Shown here piece after piece: positions 43,656 to 61,855 of a stretch of DNA of 64,000 nt; position 1 is the first letter of the stretch, and each line of letters opens with the position of its first letter. The translations under genes and the position numbers were made by a program. The notes below the pieces were generated by a model that ran no database searches, had not been told where the DNA came from, and saw only the letters and a program-made list of their open reading frames with translations. The stretch comes from Rhodocyclaceae bacterium (lineage in GTDB: Bacteria; Pseudomonadota; Gammaproteobacteria; Burkholderiales; Rhodocyclaceae), in the NCBI GenBank assembly GCA_019455325.1, contig JACFMQ010000011.1:1-64000 (forward strand), read 5' to 3'.

Positions 43656-46600
43656 GTTTTACCCCACATCCCTCGAACCCGAGGGACGAAGCGCCAGCAA
43701 GGCAACCCGCGAGGCCAACGCCGCCGCGTTTCAACCCACGTCCCTCGAACCCGAGGGACGAAGCGTCTCGAGCTGGTCGGGGGCGGGGGTCGTGACGATG
43801 TTTCAACCCACGTCCCTCGAACCCGAGGGACGAAGCCTGCGCCAAAGGTAGACCAAGCACAGGATGGACAGTTTCAACCCACGTCCCTCGAACCCGAGGG
43901 ACGAAGCAGCCAGTGAGAGAAGCCGGGCTTCAGGCCGTAGCCGTTTCAACCCACGTCCCTCGAACCCGAGGGACGAAGCTCAACGGGAGCCAGCGGCGAA
44001 AGAGCCGACTTTTGTTTCAACCCACGTCCCTCGAACCCGAGGGACGAAGCGCAGATCGAGATAATGGGGAGGGCAGCATGACCGTTTCAACCCACGTCCC
44101 TCGAACCCGAGGGACGAAGCGTTGCCCTGGCCTCGCTCCCCGGCGCGCACGAAGTTTCAACCCACGTCCCTCGAACCCGAGGGACGAAGCCTTGCGCGGC
44201 GCTTGCCCAGCCCTCCGCATCGAGCGTTTCAACCCACGTCCCTCGAACCCGAGGGACGAAGCGCGACGAGGCGGCGCTGCCGGCGCGACCCCGCCATGTT
44301 TCAACCCACGTCCCTCGAACCCGAGGGACGAAGCCCGCAGCGGACGATCTGTGTAAAACCCTGTATCTGGTTTCAACCCACGTCCCTCGAACCCGAGGGA
44401 CGAAGCTCTCAAAACGATGCCGTCAATGAAGGTCATGGTTAAGTTTCAACCCACGTCCCTCGAACCCGAGGGACGAAGCGCCTAATGTGCACGTACCCGA
44501 ACCGCCGACGCCTGTTTCAACCCACGTCCCTCGAACCCGAGGGACGAAGCCGGCGACGGATTGGAATAATCCTGCCCACGGCAAGTTTCAACCCACGTCC
44601 CTCGAACCCGAGGGACGAAGCCGAACGCGTCCTGCCGAGGCATGGGGGGTGGAGGGTTTCAACCCACGTCCCTCGAACCCGAGGGACGAAGCAATGGACA
44701 TCCAGAGCACGATGAAGGAAAACTGGTTTCAACCCACGTCCCTCGAACCCGAGGGACGAAGCCTGTTTCGGCAGATTGTCGAGGGGGCGGTGTGATGTTT
44801 CAACCCACGTCCCTCGAACCCGAGGGACGAAGCGCCGGTCTTTCAGGAGTTTATCGCTCACGACGTAGTTTCAACCCACGTCCCTCGAACCCGAGGGACG
44901 AAGCAGCCCCTCGACCGAGTTGAGTCTGTTTCGCATGCGTTTCAACCCACGTCCCTCGAACCCGAGGGACGAAGCACGACAATGAGGCCAGCATGATGCA
45001 GTTCATCGAGTTTCAACCCACGTCCCTCGAACCCGAGGGACGAAGCTGCTGATCGACCGCGAGATGGTCGCCGCCTACGTGTTTCAACCCACGTCCCTCG
45101 AACCCGAGGGACGAAGCTCGAGCAGCGTGCGGCTCTTGCCTGTGCCCATGTCCATGTTTCAACCCACGTCCCTCGAACCCGAGGGACGAAGCTGACGATC
45201 AGGGTCGTCCGGCGGTCGAAGTCGACGTTTCAACCCACGTCCCTCGAACCCGAGGGACGAAGCTCCTCTCCCTTGCTGCAGACGAACTGCCCGACGCGGT
45301 TTCAACCCACGTCCCTCGAACCCGAGGGACGAAGCGCGGCGGGCTGTTTTCGATCGAGGCCATCGCGTGTTTCAACCCACGTCCCTCGAACCCGAGGGAC
45401 GAAGCACCACTTCGAGCGCGGTGGCATCGTCGGCTCGGTCGTTTCAACCCACGTCCCTCGAACCCGAGGGACGAAGCGTCGCAATGGCGTTCCTGTAATG
45501 ACCGACAACCAGTTTCAACCCACGTCCCTCGAACCCGAGGGACGAAGCCACGTAATCGGCGAGGTCGGATTCCCCCCATTCCTGTTTCAACCCACGTCCC
45601 TCGAACCCGAGGGACGAAGCACCGTGCCGGAACTCCGGTTGAGCAGCAACGCGATGTTTCAACCCACGTCCCTCGAACCCGAGGGACGAAGCCGTCGTAC
45701 TGCTGACCGTCGGAGATGCGAATGCAACGTTTCAACCCACGTCCCTCGAACCCGAGGGACGAAGCTCGCCGACGAATCTTCCCATCCACGATTACCAGGA
45801 GTTTCAACCCACGTCCCTCGAACCCGAGGGACGAAGCCGTCCATGGTTACCTCGATCAACTGCGCCAGGTCGTTTCAACCCACGTCCCTCGAACCCGAGG
45901 GACGAAGCCCCTCGCCGCCACGACGCGCTACAAGCTGCCGAAGGTTTCAACCCACGTCCCTCGAACCCGAGGGACGAAGCAGCGGCTCGAAGCCAAGGTG
46001 CGCAGCATTACCGAGTTTCAACCCACGTCCCTCGAACCCGAGGGACGAAGCCGGATGCGAGCACCGGAGAATTCGAGCGACTCAAGGTTTCAACCCACGT
46101 CCCTCGAACCCGAGGGACGAAGCCTCGCCGGCGCGATCATCGGCGGCTTTCTCGGGTCGTTTCAACCCACGTCCCTCGAACCCGAGGGACGAAGCCCGTG
46201 ACCGCGCTCGCCGCCGTCAATCCCGTGCTGGTTTCAACCCACGTCCCTCGAACCCGAGGGACGAAGCCCGCGTCGCATCCTCGACGGTCGTAGGTGCTCT
46301 GGTGTTTCAACCCACGTCCCTCGAACCCGAGGGACGAAGCGCGCAATGGGTGTCCGGATGGCACTCAGGCGGATGAGTTTCAACCCACGTCCCTCGAACC
46401 CGAGGGACGAAGCTTGCCGATGGCGAGCGGCGACAGGTAGTTTTGGAGTTTCAACCCACGTCCCTCGAACCCGAGGGACGAAGCCCGGCAGGCCGGTTGC
46501 TAGCGCGGCAATGGCGTGGTTTCAACCCACGTCCCTCGAACCCGAGGGACGAAGCCGGTACGTTCCGTCGAGGCCTCAAGCAATACTCGTGGTTTCAACC

Positions 46601-49600
46601 CACGTCCCTCGAACCCGAGGGACGAAGCTGCTCACCCATCCGGATACCGCCGGATTCAAGCTGTTTCAACCCACGTCCCTCGAACCCGAGGGACGAAGCC
46701 GTTCTGGTCTGCATGACCTGGTCGCCTTGATCAGTTTCAACCCACGTCCCTCGAACCCGAGGGACGAAGCTTATCGATGCGCTCAACCGACTGGCCGATG
46801 CTGCGGTTTCAACCCACGTCCCTCGAACCCGAGGGACGAAGCCCCCACACCCACAGGATGATCGTGGCGGCGATCATGTTTCAACCCACGTCCCTCGAAC
46901 CCGAGGGACGAAGCGCAGTTGCAAATCCATATCCTCAAGGGCAATACGGTTTCAACCCACGTCCCTCGAACCCGAGGGACGAAGCGTACCGTTCTACAAA
47001 CTCGGCATCGTCATCAGTGTTTCAACCCACGTCCCTCGAACCCGAGGGACGAAGCCTTACTTCTGGATTCGAGCGTCTTGACAACCATTCGGTTTCAACC
47101 CACGTCCCTCGAACCCGAGGGACGAAGCTGAGGTCGAGGTTGAGCATGGCCGCGCCTTCGCGGTTTCAACCCACGTCCCTCGAACCCGAGGGACGAAGCC
47201 GGCGCGGCGGCGCTGGCGGCGGTGTCCCAGGCGACGTTTCAACCCACGTCCCTCGAACCCGAGGGACGAAGCGGATGGTCGTGTTGCCGTTGGCGATCAT
47301 GTTCAAGGTTTCAACCCACGTCCCTCGAACCCGAGGGACGAAGCAGCTTGGCCGTGGCGCCCCAGTTGCGGGACAAGTTGTTTCAACCCACGTCCCTCGA
47401 ACCCGAGGGACGAAGCGTCGCGCCTTGGCGGCGCGCTGGCGCTGATGCCGGCGTTTCAACCCACGTCCCTCGAACCCGAGGGACGAAGCGACAGTGCCGG
47501 CCGATACGGTGTAAATCGTGACGCCCGTTTCAACCCACGTCCCTCGAACCCGAGGGACGAAGCGACTGCGAGGCCATTAGCATTACCCCTTATTGATGTT
47601 TCAACCCACGTCCCTCGAACCCGAGGGACGAAGCCAACGGCGGCCAGGCCGACGGCCAGGATGGTAAGGTTTCAACCCACGTCCCTCGAACCCGAGGGAC
47701 GAAGCACGGTAAGGCGGCCGGCTTCCTCGTTGATCGAAATGTTTCAACCCACGTCCCTCGAACCCGAGGGACGAAGCCGCGTTCGCCCCATTGCGTCATC
47801 ACTTGGTAATGGTTTCAACCCACGTCCCTCGAACCCGAGGGACGAAGCCGGTGCCGGAAACCTGCGATGCAATGACAGCGCTCGTTTCAACCCACGTCCC
47901 TCGAACCCGAGGGACGAAGCACGACGCCCTCTACCTGCTGCAAATACTTTTCCGGTTTCAACCCACGTCCCTCGAACCCGAGGGACGAAGCGACCGTACC
48001 CCAGGTGCCTTGCGACTTCTTCTGTTTGTTTCAACCCACGTCCCTCGAACCCGAGGGACGAAGCATCGCCACTATCTTCCACTGGCCGCTGGCGGCGATG
48101 TTTCAACCCACGTCCCTCGAACCCGAGGGACGAAGCCTTCAGCGCCTTGTGCAGCGCCGGGTCGATCTCGACGTTTCAACCCACGTCCCTCGAACCCGAG
48201 GGACGAAGCGACGGTCTTTTCGACACCTTGCACCGTGACAACCAGAGTTTCAACCCACGTCCCTCGAACCCGAGGGACGAAGCGCGAAGCCGCGCCTAAA
48301 CTTGTATCTAGGACACATTGGTTTCAACCCACGTCCCTCGAACCCGAGGGACGAAGCTGAAGCTCCCCGCGACGTCGGCTCCTCTTTCAATGTTTCAACC
48401 CACGTCCCTCGAACCCGAGGGACGAAGCCCATCGGCAGCTCGAGGCCGGCCGGCGCGGACTGGTTTCAACCCACGTCCCTCGAACCCGAGGGACGAAGCC
48501 CGGCAAACCGGTTGCCAGCGCGGCGATAGCGTGGTTTCAACCCACGTCCCTCGAACCCGAGGGACGAAGCCCGCTGGTACGCTACCGCGACGAGGTATCG
48601 CCGACGTTTCAACCCACGTCCCTCGAACCCGAGGGACGAAGCGGCGGCACCTTGGCGACGTGCCGCGCGACCAGCAGGTTTCAACCCACGTCCCTCGAAC
48701 CCGAGGGACGAAGCTCACCGCGCATCGGGATGACGTACTCGTAGTCGGCGTTTCAACCCACGTCCCTCGAACCCGAGGGACGAAGCGTTGAGTTTGTGGC
48801 TGCGTTTCAGGACTGCGTCCCGTTTCAACCCACGTCCCTCGAACCCGAGGGACGAAGCCATGGTCGTTACTCCTTCGCAAGGTTCAGGTCGAGGTTTCAA
48901 CCCACGTCCCTCGAACCCGAGGGACGAAGCCTGCGCAAACGTGCTTCGGATGAAATCGAGGATTGGGTTTCAACCCACGTCCCTCGAACCCGAGGGACGA
49001 AGCGTTAGGCGGGCGATAGGCGCCTCGCTTCGTTTCCGTTTCAACCCACGTCCCTCGAACCCGAGGGACGAAGCCTTCCAGCCAGGGTCCGTGGTCCGCA
49101 CGCTCATGGTTTCAACCCACGTCCCTCGAACCCGAGGGACGAAGCCTTCGCCCTGGTCTTCTTCCTCGGCCTGCAGTCGCTGTTTCAACCCACGTCCCTC
49201 GAACCCGAGGGACGAAGCTGAGGCCGGCGGCCTTGGTGACGCCGTACTGTTTGTTTCAACCCACGTCCCTCGAACCCGAGGGACGAAGCAGGATGCCGCC
49301 GACCGCAAGCGGCCGGCCGGCGGGTTTCAACCCACGTCCCTCGAACCCGAGGGACGAAGCGCGGAGACGTGGCCGGGCCAGACGACGTAGCCGAGGTTTC
49401 AACCCACGTCCCTCGAACCCGAGGGACGAAGCTTTGGTGCGCTGGGGCCACAAGATGGGGCCGCTTGTTTCAACCCACGTCCCTCGAACCCGAGGGACGA
49501 AGCTCCGGGATGGCCACCAGATCGCCGCATCTCATGTGGTTTCAACCCACGTCCCTCGAACCCGAGGGACGAAGCACATAGACCTCGGCGTGCTCGTTGC

Positions 49601-52600
49601 CGGTGTCGCAGTTTCAACCCACGTCCCTCGAACCCGAGGGACGAAGCCGTACTCCAGCCCGAGATCGTCGCGCAGACCGACGATGTTTCAACCCACGTCC
49701 CTCGAACCCGAGGGACGAAGCATCAAGCAGCACCAGCATTCCGAACGTGACGCGGTTTCAACCCACGTCCCTCGAACCCGAGGGACGAAGCAGGAAGTGG
49801 ATTTGGGTATGGCGCCATCCGGGAAGTTTCAACCCACGTCCCTCGAACCCGAGGGACGAAGCCAAGCCGTCGGCTCGATCAGGTTGGCCAGCATGTCGTT
49901 TCAACCCACGTCCCTCGAACCCGAGGGACGAAGCAGGGCACCACCGGATTCCGCATCGACGCCAAGCGGGTTTCAACCCACGTCCCTCGAACCCGAGGGA
50001 CGAAGCCCGCGCGCCGGCAGGTTGCCGTAGGTGTCGTGGATGTTTCAACCCACGTCCCTCGAACCCGAGGGACGAAGCGTCGCGGCCCGAGTCGCCCCGA
50101 ACTTCCGTAGTGAGTTTCAACCCACGTCCCTCGAACCCGAGGGACGAAGCGGCCAGGCGGCCGTCCTCTCCCTTGCTGCAGACGTTTCAACCCACGTCCC
50201 TCGAACCCGAGGGACGAAGCCCGACGGGCAACCCATTCCTCGACCTCTGCCTGTGGTTTCAACCCACGTCCCTCGAACCCGAGGGACGAAGCCATCACGC
50301 CGAAGTCTGATGGCGGCACGGACGCCGTTTCAACCCACGTCCCTCGAACCCGAGGGACGAAGCGGGACGTGCCTCCATTTGACCGTTTGAGCATGGCCGT
50401 TTCAACCCACGTCCCTCGAACCCGAGGGACGAAGCCGAGCGCGCCGCGGAACATTTCCGGCACGATCAGGTTTCAACCCACGTCCCTCGAACCCGAGGGA
50501 CGAAGCCTCCCGGCGGTCTTTCGCATCGTGAGCGTCCGTCATGTTTCAACCCACGTCCCTCGAACCCGAGGGACGAAGCGCGTCCAGCCCTGGCCCTTCT
50601 CTTCGGCCGGGTAGGGTTTCAACCCACGTCCCTCGAACCCGAGGGACGAAGCGCAGCCCACGAACCACGTCGCTGACGGTTCGATACTTGTTTCAACCCA
50701 CGTCCCTCGAACCCGAGGGACGAAGCCCTCAGCGCCGGCCGGATCGCTTCGTCTATGTTCAGTTTCAACCCACGTCCCTCGAACCCGAGGGACGAAGCCG
50801 TTGCGCACCAGGTTGTTCTCCGGCGTGGCGAAGTTTCAACCCACGTCCCTCGAACCCGAGGGACGAAGCCGCGTGCCCGTCTTGTGGCGGTACCGCACTC
50901 ATCCCAGTTTCAACCCACGTCCCTCGAACCCGAGGGACGAAGCCCGAAGGGCTCCTCGGTCTTCTTCGCCACGCCGGAGTTTCAACCCACGTCCCTCGAA
51001 CCCGAGGGACGAAGCGCATGAAGATGGCGAAGGCCACGGACGCCGACCTGTTTCAACCCACGTCCCTCGAACCCGAGGGACGAAGCATTCATCGCGGTCT
51101 TCGACGACCACCGCACCGACGTTTCAACCCACGTCCCTCGAACCCGAGGGACGAAGCGCCGGACCCCGATGAGGGCCGCTGGTTCGTCCTCTCGTTTCAA
51201 CCCACGTCCCTCGAACCCGAGGGACGAAGCCGGTGGACTGCCGGGTTGTGCGGCTGGCAACCACGTTTCAACCCACGTCCCTCGAACCCGAGGGACGAAG
51301 CTCGTCGGCGGGCAAGATGCTCGCGTGTGTGTGCGGTTTCAACCCACGTCCCTCGAACCCGAGGGACGAAGCTCAAGTGGGCCGACAACGTGCTGGCACT
51401 GGTTGAGTTTCAACCCACGTCCCTCGAACCCGAGGGACGAAGCTCGCAGCGGCATGCGGGCCATGCCTCCACCATTGCGGTTTCAACCCACGTCCCTCGA
51501 ACCCGAGGGACGAAGCGTTGTGGTCGTGCCATCGAGCAGGTCGTACTCGATGTTTCAACCCACGTCCCTCGAACCCGAGGGACGAAGCGACCGGCTGGAC
51601 GTCTACCGAAGGCAGGGCATGAAGTTTCAACCCACGTCCCTCGAACCCGAGGGACGAAGCCCCCCTCGGTAGAGGGATTCGCGTCGTGCCATCCGTTTCA
51701 ACCCACGTCCCTCGAACCCGAGGGACGAAGCTTCCTGCGCATCTTCCTCGACCGGCTGCGCAGGCGTTTCAACCCACGTCCCTCGAACCCGAGGGACGAA
51801 GCTCGCCGCGGCGGTCGGGCCAGCCGCGGTCGAGGTAGTTTCAACCCACGTCCCTCGAACCCGAGGGACGAAGCCGGCGGCAGATCGGCGGCGGTGATCG
51901 GCCGCACCGGTTTCAACCCACGTCCCTCGAACCCGAGGGACGAAGCGCGGACGCCGTTCTTTCCCGCGACCTTCCCTTCAAGTTTCAACCCACGTCCCTC
52001 GAACCCGAGGGACGAAGCGGCGATTTTGCGCCAGAGCAAACGCGATGGGTGACGTTTCAACCCACGTCCCTCGAACCCGAGGGACGAAGCGCATGTAGCG
52101 CCAGGCGATCAGGCAGCGCATGGCGTTTCAACCCACGTCCCTCGAACCCGAGGGACGAAGCTTGTTGGCCACGCTATACCTGATCTCCGTCTCGTGGTTT
52201 CAACCCACGTCCCTCGAACCCGAGGGACGAAGCGTGCTGACGCCCCCTGTCCGGCTGCGGTATGAGAGGTTTCAACCCACGTCCCTCGAACCCGAGGGAC
52301 GAAGCGCACGGTGATCTCGTACTGCGGCATCGCCTCGCTGTTTCAACCCACGTCCCTCGAACCCGAGGGACGAAGCAGATACTCGGTGCAATACTGGCGC
52401 TTGAGGCTCGGGTTTCAACCCACGTCCCTCGAACCCGAGGGACGAAGCCTCGCATGTTCATGGCTTACTCCTGTTGCGGTCTGTTTCAACCCACGTCCCT
52501 CGAACCCGAGGGACGAAGCGCCGGCTCGATGACTCCGTCCTCGCGGGCCTCAGTGTTTCAACCCACGTCCCTCGAACCCGAGGGACGAAGCCCGAAGTCG

Positions 52601-53597
52601 GCGACCATCGGCCACAGCCGGCGCTTGTTTCAACCCACGTCCCTCGAACCCGAGGGACGAAGCGCGGCAGATCGGCGGCGGTGATCGGCCGCACCGGTTT
52701 CAACCCACGTCCCTCGAACCCGAGGGACGAAGCGCCGATGCCGGCGGCGCTGGCAGTGGGTCGGCTGGAGTTTCAACCCACGTCCCTCGAACCCGAGGGA
52801 CGAAGCCTAATGGACATCAGATCATTCCTTTCACATTGACGTGTTTCAACCCACGTCCCTCGAACCCGAGGGACGAAGCCTTGATGCTTCCCTGCGCGAT
52901 CTTGCAGACGGTGGAGTTTCAACCCACGTCCCTCGAACCCGAGGGACGAAGCGCGTGCTGCTCGATGGCGCCACCGCCGTCGTCAAGTTTCAACCCACGT
53001 CCCTCGAACCCGAGGGACGAAGCTTCTCGTGGATCCACGACGACGTGCAGGGTGACGAGTTTCAACCCACGTCCCTCGAACCCGAGGGACGAAGCACGAG
53101 CCCGCCCGGCAGCACGGTCTCCGGTACGGTGACGTTTCAACCCACGTCCCTCGAACCCGAGGGACGAAGCCCCGGCTCGCTTGGGCAAAGGCCGCGCGAT
53201 GAACGTTTCAACCCACGTCCCTCGAACCCGAGGGACGAAGCCAGGCCGACCCGGTCGCCGCCATCGCCGCCAAGCTCGTTTCAACCCACGTCCCTCGAAC
53301 CCGAGGGACGAAGCGAAATCCAGGACACCGGCACATCCATCAGTTCCTGTTTCAACCCACGTCCCTCGAACCCGAGGGACGAAGCGCTGATCGACCGCGA
53401 GACGACTGCCGCCTACATAGTTTCAACCCACGTCCCTCGAACCCGAGGGACGAAGCACGCGGCGGGTGTCGTTGGCGCCCTTGCGGGCATGTTTCAACCC
53501 ACGTCCCTCGAACCCGAGGGACGAAGCACGGCGGCCGGTCGTCCGGATTTCTGCCGTCAAGTTTCAACCCACGTCCCTCGAACCCGAGGGACGAAGC
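43656..53597 (-). CRISPR. Type I-C CRISPR array, 139 repeats / 138 spacers
   Basis: A 37-bp repeat recurs every 70-75 bp; in plus orientation it begins GTTTCAACCCACG and ends CGAGGGACGAAGC. Spacers run from 33 to 38 nt. In crRNA orientation (minus strand) the repeat ends in GTTGAAAC and contains an 8-bp stem, GTCCCTCG/CGAGGGAC, with a 4-base loop. The rightmost repeat (53561-53597) abuts the leader. The leftmost (43656-43692) is degenerate in its first 15 bases, marking the old end. Counts were made by eye from each repeat start. Long apparent open frames across the array are repeat artefacts. Confidence 0.97.
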
Positions 53598-53778
53598 TCT
53601 TCATCTGCAACTACCGAATTCAACGCCATAAAAAACCTGCCTCGCGCGAACCCACAGTTGATGAGCGGTAAGAAATCTAATTTGAAGCATGTGCAGTTGG
53701 ATAACCGCAATAAAATCATTGCGCTGCAAACAGCGCGAACATCCCCACGAATTGCCGACCACTCCTGGTTCGCGCAGA
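53598..53778 (-). promoter_or_regulatory. CRISPR leader
   Basis: About 180 bp, comparatively AT-rich, between cas2 and the first repeat on the transcribed strand. No gene is visible. By position it should hold the array promoter and the integration signals for new spacers; exact elements were not assigned. Confidence 0.75.
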
Positions 53779-54069
53779 TCACAATACAAGCGGGGCATTG
53801 AAGTTAGTGGCGCGAAAGTGGCCGTGCTCGCGTACCTCGTAGCCTTTCAGCTCCGCGATCCGATAAAGGCGCAGATTGTCCTCTTCGACCTTGATCTCGT
53901 CGACCAGACGGCGCTCCAGCGATTCGAACTGCGCACGGTCGATTTGGCACTCGAATACTGACTTCTGTACGCGCTGGCCGATTCCCTCACAAATTTTCGC
54001 CACGCGCCGGAGACGTCTACGGCCTTCCCGTGTTTCAGTATTCACATCGTAGCAAACGATGACCAGCAT
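53779..54069 (-). CDS. cas2: CRISPR-associated endoribonuclease Cas2
   Basis: A ferredoxin-like Cas2 of 96 residues ([20 protein letters not shown], with the Asp in the first strand). It forms the adaptation complex with Cas1. It lies 4 bp after cas1 and next to the leader. Confidence 0.95.
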
Positions 54070-54073
54070 TGAT

Positions 54074-55102
54074 CTACCTCAATAGATAAGGCAGGTACTC
54101 GGCAACGTCGCCGCGTAGCGTCCGTGCGAGCATCCGTGCCTGGATATGGGGCAGGAGGCCCAGCGGGACGGGTTCGGCGAGCAAGGGGTGAGAAAGATTC
54201 TCCTGTTTGCGTTCCTGATAGGCGACCAGAACGGTCTTGCGCGCATCTCCCTCCAGGAGAACGGCTCCTCCGTCGCGTTCGACGAAGTCGCCGAACGTGA
54301 TCTGCCCCCGGTTGACGAGCGACAGAGCCAAGCGATCGGCAAAAATGCGGAACTCCTCCATCAGGTCGAGCGCCAGCGCAGCCCGGCCTGGACGTACCAC
54401 ATGCAGGAAGCCGATCTGCGGATCGAGGCCGACCGTTTCCAGCGCGGAGCGGCAGTCGTTCATCAGCAGAGAATAGATGAACGAGAGCAGGGCATTGATT
54501 CGATCCCGCGGCGGGCGGCGGCTGCGGCCGCCCATGCGGAAATCGGCGCGCAGGTTGGTGCGTACCAGGCGGTTGAGGACGGCGAAATATTGCCGCGCTG
54601 CTTCACCCTCGATGCCTCGCAGAGTATCCATGTCCGCTGCCTCCGGCAGTGCGCGCAGGCTTGCCGCAAGATCGGCTGCGCCGCGCGCCAGTGCGTTGGC
54701 GTCCTCCTCGTTTTTCGCCTCTCGCGAACCGCGTAACAGAATCTGCCGGCAATTCCGGATTTTCCCCGCGATACAGTTGCGCGCCACGCCGAGCGCGAAC
54801 ACAGCCTCTCCGGCGAGCCGATGTTGGGCCTGCCGCAGAAGCACGTTGCCGGCAACGGCGCCTTCCAGCCGCGCCTTGAAACGGCCGTTGGCGTCGAGCA
54901 GCACCAAGCCGATCCCATCGTCCGCCAGGCGATGCATCAGAGGAACCGAGACGGAGACATGGCCGAAGCACGTGACCGTGTTCAGGTGGTGGAGCGGCAC
55001 GCGCAGCCTGGTTTCCCGCGCCACTTCGACGCGCAGGGTGTTGTTGTCGAGGCATAGATGACTGTCGGGCGTCGTCACATAAAGCGTGTTCAGGAGTTGC
55101 AT
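54074..55102 (-). CDS. cas1: CRISPR-associated integrase Cas1 (type I-C)
   Basis: The protein has 342 residues. The metal-binding residues appear in [11 protein letters not shown] (Glu), [10 protein letters not shown] (His) and DLMEEFR (acid). It integrates spacers at the leader-proximal repeat. One base separates it from cas4. Confidence 0.95.
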
Positions 55103-55103
55103 G

Positions 55104-55742
55104 TCAGATCTCCGGGTCGAACAACGATGACAAGGTCCGGGTGCGAGTAGCGTCAGCCGAAAGCGCTTCCGGTTGGCACAGGTCGCGCAACGAGCAGGCC
55201 CGGCAACGCTCGTCGTTGAGCGGCGGCGGCATGGTGCTGCCAGCGAGCGAGGTACGAACGGCGGCGACGGTTTCCTCGACGCTTTGTCGCAGCGCTCCGT
55301 CGATGGAGACGATGCGCCGTCGTCGCGATGAGGCGTAGTACAGGGCGCCCTCCGCTATCGGTCGGCCGAACATTTCTTCCAGGCATATCGCCTGTGCTGC
55401 CAACTGGACGTCGTCGCAGGCCGCGATGTCGGCGCGCTTGTGCCGCGAACCGTGTTTGTATTCCACCGGATAGGGCGTTCCGTCGGTCAGGAACTCGACG
55501 ACGTCGGCTTTGCCGACGAGCCCAAGGCGGTCGCAGAAGAGCGGAAGTGCGCGCTCCACGCGCAGGCCGTCGCGCGTTTCGAAGCCGGGATCGTCCACCC
55601 GCTTGTGCAGGGCTTGGCCGCGCTGGGTGTAAAGGTTGTCCTCGAATACCTGCTCGACGTGGATCAGAGCACACTGGCGCGGGCAGTAGCGCCAGTGCTG
55701 CAGGGCGGAAAGGGCAATTGGATCAACAGGTTCATCGTTCAT
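55104..55742 (-). CDS. cas4: CRISPR-associated exonuclease Cas4
   Basis: The protein has 212 residues. Fe-S cysteines are in YCPRQC near the N-terminus and CRACSLRDLC near the C-terminus. The nuclease core has VGKADVVEF and YPVEYKHG. Cas4 trims prespacers and enforces PAM choice and orientation in I-C systems. ATG 55742 starts the conserved part; the frame is open upstream into the toxin-antitoxin remnant. Confidence 0.93.
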   Translation of the reverse strand: MNDEPVDPIALSALQHWRYCPRQCALIHVEQVFEDNLYTQRGQALHKRVDDPGFETRDGLRVERALPLFCDRLGLVGKADVVEFLTDGTPYPVEYKHGSRHKRADIAACDDVQLAAQAICLEEMFGRPIAEGALYYASSRRRRIVSIDGALRQSVEETVAAVRTSLAGSTMPPPLNDERCRACSLRDLCQPEALSADATRTRTLSSLFDPEI

Positions 55743-55802
55743 GATGCGAACAATCTGGAAGATTCTGACTACAATCCGAGATCCTCCACGAAGGAGGGGG
55801 TC

Positions 55803-56010
55803 ATGATGCCGCTCACCTACCAGCAAGTCACCAATGCCGCCATGCAGCTCAGCCCGAATGAGCGCGTCGTCCTTGCGGAAAGGCTCTGGGTCAGCGTCGA
55901 GACGTCCGAGCCATCGTGCAGCGGCCTGGGACGAAGAGATCGCCTGCCGCGTCGTGCAACTGATGCCGGCGAGGTGAAACAGCGTCTGCCGAAAAAGCTA
56001 TCGCCGAACT
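55803..56010 (+). pseudogene. Frameshifted antitoxin remnant (Unstab_antitox/PF09720 type)
   Basis: A good ribosome-binding site (AAGGAGGGGG) and ATG lead into LTYQQVTNAAMQLSPNERVV and LAERLWVSVE, the start of a small RelB-like antitoxin. The middle (AAAWDEEIACRVVQL) is in the +1 frame from about 55920, and the end (DAGEVKQRLP) is back in the first frame from 55962. Two compensating frameshifts therefore scramble about 20 residues. It lies antisense to the cas operon. Confidence 0.65.
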
Positions 56011-56154: not shown

Positions 56155-57036
56155 TTACACCCGCTCGATCAGCGTCACCCCGGCCGGCAGGCTGGCCTCG
56201 TCGATGCTGACGTCGTAGTCGGTGAAGCTGCGCGGCACGTCGATGCCTGTCTTACGTGCGATCTTGATGCGGTCGAACAGTGCATGTGCGTGAGCGTTGC
56301 CCAGTTCTGAATCGTGCTTGAAGACGTACAGTCCGCGCGTCGCCATTTCGCCGCGCGCCGCCGACCGATCATGCTCGAACATGTGCTCCAGTGCCTGCCA
56401 GAGCAGCTCCAGGTCGTCCTCGCCAAAGCCGGTCTGCTTGGCGAGGAAGGAAGAAACGAAGCCGTGGGCGACATAGACGCCGTAAGGCACCGTGTGCTTG
56501 CGGCCCATGGTGCGGTTGTCGCCCTGTTGCTTCTCGGCTTCGGCTTCCGTCGCTACCGCCATGCGAGTGATCGAATGCTCCTGGGCGATGATCGGATCGA
56601 CGGAGCGGGCAAAGGTCAGTTGTACCGGGCCGCGCACCTGGCCGCAGTTCACGCCGGTGGACATCACCGCGCCGAAAGTGCGGACGTCGTAGAAATTGGC
56701 GCACATCCATTGCCGTGCCTTGTCGACGGTATCGCCGCTGCCCTTGCGCTTCTTGTCTCCCTTGAGCTCCTCTTCGGCGCCGACGGCGATGTAGGCTTTT
56801 TCGTGGGTCTGGTTGAGGACCGCCTTTTCCTTCACGTAGATGTCGAAGGGCGGCGTTTCGCCTTTCACCAGCCCGACGAAGTTGCGCACCTTGCGCTTCA
56901 GCGAAACGTCGGTCACCAGTCCGTGGCCGGATTCGGCGTCGAGGCGTGGCAGATTGCCGGCGTCCGGGTCGCCGTTGGGGTTGCCGTCGCGTACCTCGAA
57001 GACGAGAGCGAAGTCGTAGCGGTTGGAAAGGTTCAT
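56155..57036 (-). CDS. cas7: Cascade backbone subunit Cas7 (Csd2, type I-C)
   Basis: The protein has 293 residues. [28 protein letters not shown] and [20 protein letters not shown] are typical of I-C Cas7. It coats the crRNA spacer. It overlaps cas8c by 4 bp. A 412-bp gap containing the toxin-antitoxin remnant separates it from cas4. Confidence 0.95.
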
Positions 57037-58778
57037 TTGGATTCTCCCTGGGTGGATTCGTCGGACTGGGTGGATTTGCTGAAGAAGTCCTGGCGCTGGT
57101 GGTAGTAGCCGAGTGCGAAGCGTCCTTGCTCCTGCAGACTCAGATGCTTCGGAAAATCGTTCAGGCCGCCCATGATCTCGCCGAGCAGACGTTCGAAATT
57201 GATGACGCGTCCGCGATTGGCAAGCTTGGCCAAGTGGTGGTTCTTCAAACGCAACAGCGTGGTGAAGACCGCCACCGGCGTGCTGGAAGCGGCGCCGTAA
57301 TAGCGCTCGCGAATGGTCGCGTTGAGACCGGGGCTGGCTTCTTCCTGGATTTTCTCCAGGGCCGCGAACAGGCGCCCCAGCCGGTAAGCCGGGCTGTCGT
57401 TCTCAAGGTCGAGCATGGGCAACAACTCCTTTTCGAGAGATGAATCGGATTGAAACTGGCGAAGCCGATTGAGGTTGGCCTTGATGGCGGCCGCCCGCAG
57501 ATAGGTGACGTTCTGTTCGGCACGGCAGCGCAGCACCGCTGCGTTGAGCCAGGTCGCCGGGAAAGGCCCGCCGGATAGAATCGCCCGCATGATGTCGCCG
57601 CCCAGGTTGGGCGGAATATTGTCGGCCTTGCCCTGCTGGGCGCAGGCAGCGAGCAGGCGGAACAGGCTCGGGTATTCCGGGTCCCTGGCGCTGCGCACGA
57701 CTTTCAGATCGTCGAACCATTGCCGTACCCTCCGGGCGATTTCGTGCAGCGGTGCGGCATGCCAGAAGCGGACGGAAACCCGCGCCGCGTTGGGGGCGAG
57801 CCCGAGCACGTAGAAGCGGTTTTCGCCGCGGCCGCCGTCGAACTGCCCCGACTGCACCGCATTCAGCATGCTGCGCACTAATTCGGTTCGGGCATCGGGA
57901 TCGTCCTGTTCGCCGAAGATTGCGGCAAAGGCGGACTCTGCCTCGATGTCTTCCTTCTGCGTCCAGAACACCGTCGAAGCGTCGCTGACCTGGAAACGCT
58001 GGCGTGAATTGCGGTCGAGCAGGTGGTTGAGCGCGGTGGTGTAGGCGAAAGCGGCAAACGGGCTGACCGGCGCGTTGTCACCCTGTTCCTTGTTGAAGGA
58101 GGTAAAGGCATCCAGGTTGAACGAGACCAGCGTCGCCCCCGAGCTCTGCGCGCCCCAAACGCCCTTGATCGCCGTATGCAGACGTTCGGCCGCCACCTGC
58201 TGGCCGGTGATCAGACACACGGATGCACCGCCGGCTTCGTCGTCGCTCATGCAACCGGCGACGACGGCAGACCGCTGGCAGATCAGATCGCCGTCGTTGT
58301 GCAAACGGAAGGTCAATACCGGGTTGCTTTCCAGGATTTCCGGCCAGGCCGGATCGTCGGACAGCGCGGTCGGCCCGTAATCGGCATAGAAACCCTCCAG
58401 CGCCTGGATGCCCTCATCCCGGCGCGACGCTTCCGGCAGTTCGGCGATACGCCGGCGGAAGGCCGCATGCTGCTCGGCGACCCGTTCCGGCTTGCCTCGC
58501 GTATCGACGCCGAGCACGTATTCGGCGGTATCCCACAGCAGGTTGGCCGCGACGCCCGAAGAGCGCTTGATGCCCTTGGGTACAAGATAGCGCCGTGCCG
58601 TCTTTCTTTTGCCGTCGCCCTGACGCGTATCGACGATGCCCAAAGGCCGGCCTTCCGCGTCCAGTTCGACGATGAAGGGAATTTCCTTGTCCTCCAGCCC
58701 GAAGGCCGGCAAGCGCCGTGTCGGGTCGGGGTCGAGGGTCTTGCGCTGATAGTAGTCGTGAAGGGCCTGGAGAATCAT
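57033..58778 (-). CDS. cas8c: Cascade large subunit Cas8c (Csd1)
   Basis: A protein of 581 residues starting [13 protein letters not shown], the usual Csd1 beginning. Later signatures are [26 protein letters not shown] and [18 protein letters not shown]. It recognises the PAM and recruits Cas3; in I-C an internal start also yields a small subunit (Cas11c), a likely but unproven possibility here. Confidence 0.94.
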
Positions 58779-59428
58779 CCCGCCACCTGTGCTTTCGTCA
58801 GATCGATGACTCCGCGTTGCATGTCGGCGCGGAAAAATCGCGGTTTGGGATCGTCGACCGCAGAAAAATCGAGGTCGTAGAGCATCCAGCCCAGATCGCG
58901 GGTTTCGTCGAGGGCCGGCGTTTCCGTTGCCGGGTCGTCGACCAGCCGGAAGCGGGCGGCGAATTCGCGGCAGCCCAGATAGGGCTGATTGACGCATTGC
59001 CCTTTCTCGGCCCGGCGCTGGAACATTTCACGATACTTGGCCGGGTTGCCGCGGGCGTCGTCGCCGGCCGCGACCAGATCGGCGTGGATGCGATAGGCCA
59101 CGTCGCGCAGGAACAGGCCGGCTCGCTGCTGGCGATCCTCTTCCACGTACAGGGCCAGATTGCCCTTGCCGGCTCCCATGGCCGCCTGGGCGTTGCGCAC
59201 CGACACCTTGGAAGCCACTTCGTTGCGCCGCACGCTGATCCAGCGGATCGGCCTCAGTACCTCGATGCGCTTCACTTCCCAGCGGATCGCCGGCTTCCAC
59301 AGGATGGCCTCGAACACCGACCGTGCCGCCGAGGGCGTCATGACATCGTAGGACACCCGCTCGACCTTCATTTCTGGTCTGGTGAAGCAGGCGAAGCTGC
59401 CCGAAACTTCAAGGCAAAAACTCGTCAT
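58775..59428 (-). CDS. cas5: Cas5c (Cas5d) crRNA-processing subunit
   Basis: The protein has 217 residues: FCLEVSGSFACFTRPEMKVE, SYDVMTPSAARSVFEAILWKP and a GLFLRDVAYRIHADL block. In type I-C, Cas5 replaces Cas6 and cleaves the repeat at the base of its hairpin, which fits the stem seen in this repeat. It overlaps cas8c by 4 bp. Confidence 0.94.
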   Translation of the reverse strand: MTSFCLEVSGSFACFTRPEMKVERVSYDVMTPSAARSVFEAILWKPAIRWEVKRIEVLRPIRWISVRRNEVASKVSVRNAQAAMGAGKGNLALYVEEDRQQRAGLFLRDVAYRIHADLVAAGDDARGNPAKYREMFQRRAEKGQCVNQPYLGCREFAARFRLVDDPATETPALDETRDLGWMLYDLDFSAVDDPKPRFFRADMQRGVIDLTKAQVAG

Positions 59429-59476
59429 CGTTTTTCCTCTCCTTTCGCGTTTCAATCATCGTTGCTGCTGTTTGCC

Positions 59477-61855
59477 TCACAGCACGAAACTCCCAGGGTC
59501 GCCCGGCGCTCCGTCGGCATTGATGCCGAGCACCTTGTCGTAGAGCAGATCGTTCCCAGCCGACTGCACGTACAGCCCCGGCAGGTCTCCTGCCAGCGGT
59601 TCGACATCGCCCTGCTCGAGCAGGCGTTGCAGGTCGTTCCGGTAGATGGTCACGCCGTAGCGCTGCAGCTTGTGCAGCAGCCAGCGTTCCGGGCCGTTCC
59701 TTCTCAGAGTGTGCAGCCACATGTCGATTACTTCGTCGTGCTCGTCGCGTCGGTAGCGGACGAAAATCGTGGCGCCCTCCTGCTCGTCGATCAGGCGGAA
59801 TTTTTCGGCGGCGGTACGAAAAGCGACGTCGGCCTCTTTCCCCGCACGCAGCAGCCCACAGATACCCTTTTCATCCAGACGGGCATCGCCGTACAACCTG
59901 CGGAAATACTCGGCGAAGCGTTCGACGCCCATCGGGTCGGCGCCGCCCGGCAATCCGGCCCAGACGATCCGGGTCGCCTGCTCGGCCATGCGCAGCAGTC
60001 CTGGCGGCGGTGCTTTCGGCGGAACGAATACGTGGACCTCGCCATGCGCCAGCCGTCCCTCGCGATTGCAGCGGCCGGCGGCCTGGGCGATGGAATCCAG
60101 TCCGGCCAGCGCCCGATAGACCACGGGGAAATCGATGTCGACGCCGGCTTCGACCAATTGGGTGCTGACGACTCGGATCGGTGCCGCGGCCCGGCCGAGG
60201 GCCAGGGCCTCCCGTCGTGCCAGCAGGGCGCCCTTGATCGCGGCAATCGTGTCGCTGCGGTGCTGGGCGCACATCAGGCCGGAGAGATGCCACAGTCCGT
60301 CGCGGCTTTCCATCTTCATCCGGGCGTATAGCTCGCGGGCGTCGGCGCGGCGGCCGACGATGGCCAGCACGGCATCGTGCGCGGCGATCTCGGGCGCCAG
60401 GTCGTCCCAGGAGCGCGGCGTTTTCAGATCGGCCGGGAGGTGGATGCGTACCCGTTCCAGGTCGGCGTAAAGGCCGGGCACGTCATCGACGATTTCGCAC
60501 ACCTCGCCGGCGGCGAAGCCACGCAGCGCCCGGGCCTGATCGAAACTGCTGCGGCTTTTCAGTGCCGGCTGGGTGGCGGTGCACAGCACCAGGGTGACGC
60601 CGTAGTCCTTGACGAGCAGGCGCAGCACGTCGACCACTGGTTGCAAATAAGCGACCGGCAGCAGTTGCGCCTCGTCGAGGACGATGACGCTGCCGACCAG
60701 GTTGTGCAGCTTGCGACAGCGCGAGGTACGGCTGGCGAACAGGCTTTCCAGCAACTGCACGTTGGTGGTGACGACCAGCGGCGCGTCCCAGTTCTCGCAG
60801 GCCAGCCGGGAACGAGCGGTCTCCTGCGTTTCGTCGGCATCGACGTTGCTGTGATGTTCGATGACGTTATCTTCGCCGAAGATGCCCCGGAAGATGCCTG
60901 CCGTCTGTTCGATGATGCTGGTGTAGGGAATGGCGTAGACGACCCGGCGCTTGCCGTGGAGGGCCGCATGGCGCAGCGCGAAGGCGAGGCTCGACAGCGT
61001 CTTGCCGCCGCCGGTCGGCACCGTCAGGCTGAACACGCCGGGCGGCAGTTCGGCTTTTGCAAGACAGGCGCGCAAGACCTCGGTCCGTTTGCGATTGACC
61101 TTGCCGTCGGCTTCGCCGCGGGCGGCGACATCCTTCGCCATGTCGCTCAACCGTACGTCCAGCAAAGCTTCCATGTCCTCCAGGCGCATGAAACCCTGTC
61201 TCGTTTCGGTCTTGCCCGGCGACATGAAGGCTTCGGTATCGAGAAAGTCGGCGTCGACCAGACAGGAGAACAGCATGCGGACCCACAGCGCGAAGCGGCC
61301 GGGAATCTCGTTATCACGGCAGCGCATCAGGTCGGCGATGTCGGGCAGCGGCGCTGCGGGTTTCAGGATGGCTGATGGAATATCCGCCGCCAGCGTGGTG
61401 CTCAGCTCCCGCTGCGTGTCGCTTCGGGCAAAGCGATTGTTCAGGCTGGCGTTGTCGCCCAGCCAGTCGGCAAGGCCGGCGTGATGGCCGGCGATCAGAT
61501 AAGAAAGGACGCGGGCGACGACCGGGCCGGAACGTTTGTCCACTTCGGCCAGATACTGCTGTGCCCAGAGGGCGCCGGCCGCCGAGTGGGTTTTTTCAGG
61601 GTCGGATATCCGCCCTTCGATATGGGCGTCGGGATCGCCACATTGCCGGATGTAGCGCTGGAAGCCTTCGCGGAACTTGCCCAGGTCGTGCCAGAGGCCG
61701 GCCAGGGCCGCCCATGGTCCGGCACCGAATTCGGTGGCGAATTCGGCAGCCAGTGCGGATACTTTCTGGAGGTGCTCGTTCAGGCCGTGCCACTGCAAGC
61801 CCCCGCCTTCATGCCTTACATGAGCGACCCATCCCGGGTCGTCGCCGTTTCTCAC
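59477..61855 (-). CDS. cas3: CRISPR helicase-nuclease Cas3 with HD domain
   Basis: The protein has 792 residues. The HD nuclease (about 20-210) has LWHDLGKF and AGHHAG. The SF2 helicase has TVPTGGGKTLSSL, VLDEAQLLP and STQLVEAGVDIDFP, then QAAGRCNREG. It degrades target DNA after Cascade binding. The GTG start at 61855 is supported by GGGGGAGG just upstream. It is the first gene of the cas operon. The 243 bp upstream hold no gene and no clear promoter. Confidence 0.95.
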   Translation of the reverse strand: MRNGDDPGWVAHVRHEGGGLQWHGLNEHLQKVSALAAEFATEFGAGPWAALAGLWHDLGKFREGFQRYIRQCGDPDAHIEGRISDPEKTHSAAGALWAQQYLAEVDKRSGPVVARVLSYLIAGHHAGLADWLGDNASLNNRFARSDTQRELSTTLAADIPSAILKPAAPLPDIADLMRCRDNEIPGRFALWVRMLFSCLVDADFLDTEAFMSPGKTETRQGFMRLEDMEALLDVRLSDMAKDVAARGEADGKVNRKRTEVLRACLAKAELPPGVFSLTVPTGGGKTLSSLAFALRHAALHGKRRVVYAIPYTSIIEQTAGIFRGIFGEDNVIEHHSNVDADETQETARSRLACENWDAPLVVTTNVQLLESLFASRTSRCRKLHNLVGSVIVLDEAQLLPVAYLQPVVDVLRLLVKDYGVTLVLCTATQPALKSRSSFDQARALRGFAAGEVCEIVDDVPGLYADLERVRIHLPADLKTPRSWDDLAPEIAAHDAVLAIVGRRADARELYARMKMESRDGLWHLSGLMCAQHRSDTIAAIKGALLARREALALGRAAAPIRVVSTQLVEAGVDIDFPVVYRALAGLDSIAQAAGRCNREGRLAHGEVHVFVPPKAPPPGLLRMAEQATRIVWAGLPGGADPMGVERFAEYFRRLYGDARLDEKGICGLLRAGKEADVAFRTAAEKFRLIDEQEGATIFVRYRRDEHDEVIDMWLHTLRRNGPERWLLHKLQRYGVTIYRNDLQRLLEQGDVEPLAGDLPGLYVQSAGNDLLYDKVLGINADGAPGDPGSFVL

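Follow-up and report, generated by a model that had tools for sequence, protein, structure and literature searches.

Overlapping spacers in a type I-C CRISPR array of a Rhodocyclaceae bacterium point to a TTC protospacer adjacent motif and to targets in the host's own prophages

The window analyzed here, a stretch of 64,000 nucleotides (nt) from a Rhodocyclaceae bacterium (assembly GCA_019455325.1, contig JACFMQ010000011.1, hereafter C7, positions 1 to 64,000), harbors an array of clustered regularly interspaced short palindromic repeats (CRISPR) and, beside it, a set of cas genes (Table 1); the other contigs of the genome are named in the same way (C3, C10, and so on). The identical 37-nt repeats, 138 in number, span positions 43728-53597, and the spacers are numbered in plus-strand order from sp0 (43693-43727) to sp137, the high numbers adjoining the leader and cas2. 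The repeat tally (138 identical plus one degenerate) agrees with the count of 138 spacers given by a first-pass annotation of this DNA, which was made from the letters alone. The same annotation read the array from the minus strand; this reading holds, cas2 and the leader adjoining the array on its high-coordinate side and the degenerate repeat closing it on the other, and this placement is better evidence than the TTC motif discussed below, which taken alone supports it. Moreover, the repeat end at the 5' side of the spacers, GTTGAAAC, is of the GAAAC type, as in the relatives, where such an end gave the orientation for 72 of 73 array calls (47 loci with 1250 distinct spacers, some calls being parts of one array).

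As for the cas genes, profile models of the I-C type scored over cut-off for cas1, cas7, cas8c, and cas5c, as did the model for cas4, in keeping with the type I-C assignment of the first pass. The Cas proteins were compared with 51-78 relatives each, keeping rows at 85% coverage and at least 45% identity, and each protein from the window deviates at 0 or 1 near-invariant columns, which is ordinary by leave-one-out. A stop codon was found within 62 of 77 relatives' cas8c segments; we put these stops down to the open reading frame (ORF) of the window starting before the real gene. Judged by its sequence, the Cas system looks intact, with all seven Cas proteins of full length.

Two spacers of the array, sp22 and sp90, share a 20-nt block, TCCTCTCCCTTGCTGCAGAC, which occurs on the plus strand of the window exactly twice, at 45264 and at 50164, and which represents the left end of sp22 and the right end of sp90. 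In the CRISPR RNA (minus) sense, sp22 is CGCGTCGGGCAGTTCGTCTGCAGCAAGGGAGAGGA and sp90 is GTCTGCAGCAAGGGAGAGGACGGCCGCCTGGCC. The first-pass annotation had placed the block at opposite ends of the spacers 45264-45298 and 50151-50183 and had read TTC, directly 5' of the sp90 start, from the sequence of sp22; both the exact positions and the triplet were recovered. In three shuffles of the spacers the longest common word was 11 nt, against the 20 nt of sp22 and sp90, and the sharing is not due to chance.

The comparison of all spacer pairs revealed seven pairs above the similarity cut-off, five of them clear. Besides sp22/sp90, these are sp99/sp101, with a 14-nt overlap between opposite strands; sp114/sp125, with 33 identical nt and coinciding 5' ends; sp39 (46485-46518) and sp67 (48500-48533), identical at 29 of 34 positions in the same register; and sp19/sp135, identical at 28 of 33 positions with an offset of one base. 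The two weakest pairs, sp49/sp52 and sp52/sp126, both rich in GC, were not considered further. The pair sp39/sp67 apparently stems from two related but diverged forms of one target, captured at the same protospacer adjacent motif (PAM); neither spacer matched the stretches of the host genome that were scanned. The pair sp99/sp101 is absent from the first-pass annotation; each of its members exposes the 5' flank of the other, and the flank is TTC both times. Given a background frequency of TTC of 1.55%, a single TTC triplet is expected by chance in about 1.6% of cases, and the one triplet from one pair on which the first pass relied is suggestive; three exposed triplets out of three (sp22/sp90 and sp99/sp101) correspond to a chance of about 4e-6. 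In the arrays of the relatives no overlapping pair exposes a PAM; 13 pairs there are duplicates with a common start, and one overlaps tail to tail. A PAM is rarely available from overlapping spacers, and the two informative pairs of the window are uncommon luck.

A 23-nt core of the sp22/sp90 target was searched in 297 genomes of the family. Apart from the array, it was retrieved from the host's own genome, at C3:103219-103241 and C29:4779-4801, with three mismatches each; two other genomes of the family gave one match each, neither of which extends into the surrounding target. The first-pass annotation claimed that both spacers sample one target and named a non-contiguous target as evidence to the contrary. 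In two prophage-like regions of the host genome the merged 48 bp are contiguous, at C3:103209-103256 (three mismatches) and at C29:4764-4811 (four mismatches). The target of sp22 has three mismatches on C3 and four on C29, that of sp90 three in each, and TTC precedes both protospacers in both copies.

The whole array was then compared with the genome that carries it. A search scoring the best 40 of 248 candidates, so that its counts may be low, gave at least 49 matches with E<=1e-3 outside C7, all of them on C3, C10, C29, or C21. A base-by-base scan of 119 kb from these four contigs, at a threshold of at least 78% identity, yielded 62 matches from 50 of the 138 spacers, against none for reversed spacers and three shuffles. 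The 5' flanks of the 62 matches are TTC in 55 cases, TTT in two, and ATC, TTG, TCC, CCC, and GAT in one each; taking the best match of each of the 50 spacers, 47 have TTC. Perfect matches were found for 21 spacers, all preceded by TTC and marking 20 sites, as sp114 and sp125 share one protospacer; best self-matches with at most one mismatch belong to 31 spacers and those with at most three to 43. Most matching spacers belong to the newer half (39 of 50, and 20 of the 21 perfect ones), and spacer age correlates weakly with mismatch number (Spearman -0.25, P 0.075). In six other genomes of the genus, three had any spacer match, for a total of four matches, the largest being a related repeat array. 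On sequence grounds, the array as a whole is aimed at the host's own prophages. The first-pass annotation was right about the target, the PAM, and the orientation; made without a database, it had no view of the targets' identity as host prophages.

Outside the host, the searches of phage collections covered the best 60 of 67 and 43 of 43 records, eight of which were read, the rest mostly having E values of 0.1-5. Among the phage matches listed, sp62 (a Citexvirus endolysin gene) and sp69 (a phage cytosine methylase gene) had E below 1e-3, and TTC precedes their targets in all six phage records read. Four plasmid records were found at E<=0.01; in two of them, both from P. aeruginosa, the match is the endolysin target of sp62 (the one read has TTC). 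An 18-nt core of sp99 matched one viral contig; the candidate was dropped, since the remainder matches at only 23/34 and 23/35 positions.

Inspecting protospacer flanks, as the first pass had proposed for all spacers, gave TTC at most of them and other triplets at some. Several results count against TTC as the PAM and against a phage gene as the common target. Three best self-matches lack TTC, namely those of sp41 (TTG), sp19 (ATC), and sp135 (GAT). Non-TTC flanks were also found for sp87 in a phage match (E 0.4, CTG), for sp133 in a Microbacterium phage (E 0.1, CAC) and a Streptomyces plasmid (E 3e-3, GTC), and for sp33 in the integrase gene of a Stutzerimonas plasmid (E 3e-3, 27/35, AAC); we take these matches of sp87, sp133, and sp33 to be chance or distant ones. 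Furthermore, the 20-nt core gave no match in viral_contigs that would represent an exact copy of the merged target, and sp22 and sp90 had no match among the phage or plasmid records listed. The main PAM exception is the site of sp19 (45047-45080) and sp135 (53386-53419). These two spacers mark the same site with an offset of one base, and the prophage copies of it carry TTT, ATC, or GAT.

One might regard TTC as a codon accident, the real PAM being a different or a shorter one (TT), as each of the two TTCs encodes Phe in the target gene and the repeat ends in C, a base that the -1 position of I-C PAMs often equals (PMC8482600). This is highly improbable: 49 distinct sites with at most four mismatches, spread over many genes and both strands, have T at -3 in 48, T at -2 in 48, and C at -1 in 46. 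That the shared block is an array duplication later mutated, instead of two captures, can practically be dismissed, for although the relatives have those 13 duplicate pairs with the same 5' end (47 loci, 1250 distinct spacers), the block lies here at opposite spacer ends and is continued on each side by the proper target sequence, and two genomic copies hold all 48 merged bp without a break. With TTC at 47 of 50 best self-matches, at 21 of 21 perfect ones, and at the sp62 and sp69 phage targets, TTC stands as the PAM. We conclude, with a probability of about 0.93, that sp22 and sp90 fall on overlapping stretches of one phage gene and belong to a type I-C array whose PAM is 5'-TTC.

Table 1. 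Features of the window, with positions in the 64,000-nt stretch
Feature	Position	Strand	Remarks
Type I-C CRISPR array	43656..53597	-	138 identical 37-nt repeats and one degenerate trailer-end repeat; 138 spacers
Degenerate terminal repeat	43656..43692	-	3 mismatches; marks the leader-distal end
sp8, old spacer	44263..44297	-	perfect match in filamentous-type prophage, C21:81412-81446, TTC
sp22	45264..45298	-	first overlapping spacer; exposes TTC 5' of the sp90 start
sp90	50151..50183	-	second overlapping spacer
sp99	50799..50832	-	perfect match C3:106651-106684, TTC; 14-nt overlap with sp101
sp101	50944..50978	-	perfect match C3:106671-106705, TTC; overlaps sp99
sp113	51803..51837	-	inside variable region of prophage retroelement target genes; 5-7 mismatches to four copies
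sp114	51875..51909	-	perfect match C10:355-389, TTC; same protospacer start as sp125
sp125	52664..52696	-	equals first 33 nt of sp114; perfect match C10:355-387, TTC
sp136, second newest spacer	53457..53490	-	perfect match C3:123158-123191, TTC
Leader region	53598..53778	-	from array to cas2; by position only
cas2	53779..54069	-	96 aa; assigned by position beside cas1 and by alignment with 58 relatives
cas1, type I-C	54074..55102	-	TIGR03640
cas4	55104..55826	-	TIGR00372
cas7/csd2, type I-C	56155..57036	-	TIGR02589
cas8c/csd1, type I-C	57033..58997	-	TIGR01863; ORF exceeds gene, profile match from residue 76
cas5c	58775..59455	-	TIGR01876
cas3	59477..61855	-	HD domain over its cut-off; helicase core slightly short of its own (98.6 against 102.45 bits)

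The targeted regions belong to three resident prophages, P1, P2, and P3, which hold 17, three, and one of the perfect spacers, respectively. P1 has an integrase gene at C3:98311-99558, and its 28-nt attachment (att) core at C3:98219 recurs at C10:8557 in a tRNA-Ser gene; we interpret C10:1-8584 and the part of C3 from 98219 to the contig end as two arms of one prophage, whose middle is not assembled on C3 or C10. The structural gene region of P1 (C3:116000-128274) holds two of the 28 spacer matches on C3 (sp34 and sp136), the remainder lying at C3:102000-116000. P2 comprises phage genes at about C29:1-14000, followed by a serine recombinase gene and typA, and may continue on C9. The first 1.5 kb of C9 are 88% like the end of C3, and its first 40 kb contain no spacer match; the starts of C10 and C29 are 90% alike. 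P3, on C21, is of the filamentous type, with a Zot-like gene, a replication-initiator gene, and an integrase gene, and is bounded by 46-nt tRNA-Phe direct repeats at C21:74961-75006 and 86000-86045.

The gene hit by sp22 and sp90 codes for a protein of 263 (C3) or 262 (C29) residues resembling FGE-sulfatase and C-type-lectin proteins, with a Pfam FGE score of 23.2 bits, just below the cut-off of 23.3. C29 also encodes a reverse transcriptase (PF00078, E 8e-23) and an Avd-like protein (E 1e-5). A template repeat lies at C29:7278-7398, and the corresponding variable repeats are the ends of four genes on C29 and C3, two of which are identical, leaving three distinct ones. The variable repeats differ from the template mainly at its adenines (16/18, 13/15, 16/18, and 14/16 differences). 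By these sequence features (reverse transcriptase, Avd-like protein, adenine-biased differences), the C29 elements represent a diversity-generating retroelement (DGR). The P1 retroelement (C3:102480-102560 compared with C29:5505-9254) is without about 3.7 kb found on C29, with an 11-nt common sequence at the joint. This C29 stretch comprises the second target gene, the Avd-like gene, the template repeat, a methylase-like gene, and most of the reverse transcriptase gene, and holds the sites of eight spacers (sp41, sp79, sp88, sp104, sp113, sp124, sp130, and sp133). A further reverse transcriptase domain is encoded elsewhere in the genome, at C31:284627-285292.

Both sp22 and sp90 fall in the constant part of the DGR target gene. 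The spacer sp113 lies in the variable region, and TTC precedes all four copies of its target. Compared with the template, seven of its eight differences are at adenines, which make up 11 of the 35 template bases (Fisher P 3e-4). Such a pattern reads as the record of what may be an older or related variant of the hypervariable sequence. Among the papers listed in a limited literature search, none was seen to describe a CRISPR spacer falling within the variable region of a DGR.

The prophages also bear on how spacers were acquired. Out of 1961 TTC sites in them, 46 were used as protospacers, and further TTC triplets are scarcer both inside the used sites (0.35 per site, against 0.59; P 0.014) and in the sequence directly upstream of them (0.35 against 0.58; P 0.017); GAA is not reduced in these sites (P 0.74). 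Ranked by asymmetry among 32 trinucleotide pairs, TTC/GAA comes first in the window spacers (38/72, P 0.0015 uncorrected) and second in 1219 spacers of the relatives (424/570). With a dinucleotide-based expectation, TTC is the third lowest in the relatives, after CCC and GGG. Two results weigh against a signal: with the same expectation, TTC in the window is mildly low (38 against 48.6), outside the eight lowest, and the per-locus trend in the relatives is not significant (23 vs 13 of 45, P 0.13). The reduction of TTC inside I-C spacers shows a moderate resemblance to the avoidance of internal PAMs in type I-E. In E. coli I-E, internal PAM depletion is described as a mark of primed, not naive, adaptation (PMC6282206). 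If this pattern carries over to I-C, Cascade and Cas3 would have been working when the spacers were taken.

In type I-C systems, Cascade plus Cas3 cut at the sites that acquisition selects. According to the scenario proposed here, sp22 and sp90, being 68 array positions apart, would have been captured separately, with Cas4-Cas1-Cas2 selecting TTC-flanked fragments of the targeted phage family, and Cascade and Cas3 would cut at the same TTC-flanked sites. PAM-flanked perfect targets in resident prophages and intact-looking cas genes, two of the marks of prophage self-targeting tolerated through an anti-CRISPR as in Xanthomonas albilineans, are both found here. The targets themselves give no sign of prophage escape by mutation, because mismatches are not concentrated in the first eight positions (8/45 against 10.3 expected, P 0.48, 23 spacers). 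The lysogen would survive with interference blocked, likeliest by a prophage-borne anti-CRISPR of no described family. In the ranking that we infer, a novel prophage anti-CRISPR comes before silent cas genes, and a mixed assembly comes third. The first is our leading candidate, at a little short of an even chance.

The search for such an anti-CRISPR gave results that speak against it. PF03230, the KlcA/ArdB fold to which relatives of AcrIC11 belong, had no match in the genome, while the E. coli control was detected; there is no KlcA-like gene here, and therefore the AcrIC11 solution is not available to this lysogen. For 58 of 67 small prophage proteins, no anti-CRISPR was named among all 19 NCBIfam families retrieved or among the 25 of 90 PHROGs families shown, and 20 individual scans of small prophage proteins named no anti-CRISPR family; these libraries cover few anti-CRISPRs, and the prophage gene calls are approximate, with some strand errors. 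Fold models of two candidate proteins of 140 and 107 residues were too poor for use (mean predicted local distance difference test scores of 63 and 44).

These two proteins, of no recognized family, are encoded in P1 at C10:1687-2635 and are followed by a 69-residue helix-turn-helix (HTH) protein, in a layout like that of acr-aca pairs. The 140-residue protein has three relatives in viral contigs, and the same search confirmed none for the 107-residue one; in the stretches available of those three contigs there is one partial match to the 107-residue protein and no HTH protein. Neither protein had a useful PDB match or any match in the phage collection records. No acr function is claimed for this locus.

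Perfect self-targets would also be harmless if the cas operon, intact in sequence, were silent or otherwise inactive. The lack of seed mismatch enrichment and the retention of TTC at 21 of 21 perfect targets are as expected without escape selection, and no anti-CRISPR family was seen in the small proteins scanned. However, the seven full-length Cas proteins have no excess of odd residues, the 138 repeats are identical, and perfect matches to prophages occur among the newest spacers (sp130, sp132, sp133, and sp136), so that acquisition was recent. Moreover, internal TTC is reduced in the used protospacers, a feature that in type I-E goes with primed acquisition dependent on interference (PMC6282206); if our analogy with I-C is valid, this too would speak for an active system. 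Silence of the operon is a somewhat unlikely explanation.

A further possibility is that spacer-bearing and prophage-bearing cells differ and that the consensus of a mixed population joins them. The genome consists of 31 contigs, the titles of most of the 80 cas8c relatives listed mark them as metagenome-assembled genomes, and contigs break inside prophages, as the likeness of the C3 end to the C9 start (88%) and of the C10 and C29 starts (90%) indicates. On the other hand, the genome has a completeness of 100 and a contamination of 2.03, the prophages are assembled in place, P1 and P3 beside att repeats and P2 beside host genes, and the newer half of one array holds 20 of the 21 perfect matches; a mixed assembly is an unlikely reading.

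Returning to the prophage anti-CRISPR, we may tentatively depict a wider scenario, in which a working I-C lysogen keeps 21 perfect TTC targets because a novel prophage anti-CRISPR would block cutting and allow continued recording, while the phages' retroelement would rewrite part of the targeted gene, sp113 being a snapshot of it. The scale of self-targeting beside an intact-looking I-C operon makes CRISPR tolerance in lysogens directly testable, with a limited set of prophage genes as potential carriers of a new anti-CRISPR. The spacers also record, densely and in order, how one host was set against a DGR-carrying phage family, and the array would allow one to test whether retroelement mutation aids CRISPR evasion.

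DGRs of the BPP-1 phage type comprise a reverse transcriptase, Avd, adenine-biased differences between template and variable repeats, and a C-type-lectin-like target. The components found here are alike, and the difference is a CRISPR spacer, sp113, inside the variable region. Self-targeting by CRISPR arrays has reportedly been surveyed broadly by Nobrega and colleagues. In this genome the self-targeting share is 36% of the spacers at the loose threshold and 15% for perfect matches, and a 2010 survey, as quoted in a review, gave 0.4% of spacers under different criteria.

The TTC PAM of type I-C (PMC8406640; PMC8482600) and self-targeting of prophages (PMC6990116; PMC10810201; PMC9867325; PMC11288051) are both established in the texts consulted; a limited literature search found no published report of such an array in this clade. 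The system of Xanthomonas oryzae pv. oryzae (PMC8406640) is of the same subtype by its cas genes and has the same 5'-TTC PAM, whereas the targets here are mainly the host's own prophages and are known from the sequence alone. In the E. coli I-E study of primed adaptation (PMC6282206), the PAM trinucleotide is likewise reduced inside spacers; the portion of that study at hand describes no specific features in the flanks, whereas in the I-C case upstream TTC is also reduced. Oenococcus sicerae (PMC9867325) likewise has a type I array directed against a resident prophage, with a conserved PAM and a suspected anti-CRISPR; five spacers are described there and, unlike here, candidate acr genes are reported. 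Closest in kind are the I-C and I-F1 systems of Xanthomonas albilineans, with AcrIC11 and AcrIF12Xal (PMC10810201), where an intact-looking I-C locus likewise carries spacers against the host's own prophages; 24 self-targeting spacers are described in its two systems, compared with 50 in the one I-C array of the window (at least 78% identity, 21 of them perfect). The subtype and the PAM of the present array are ordinary, and the extent of its self-targeting is large and is the part worth following.

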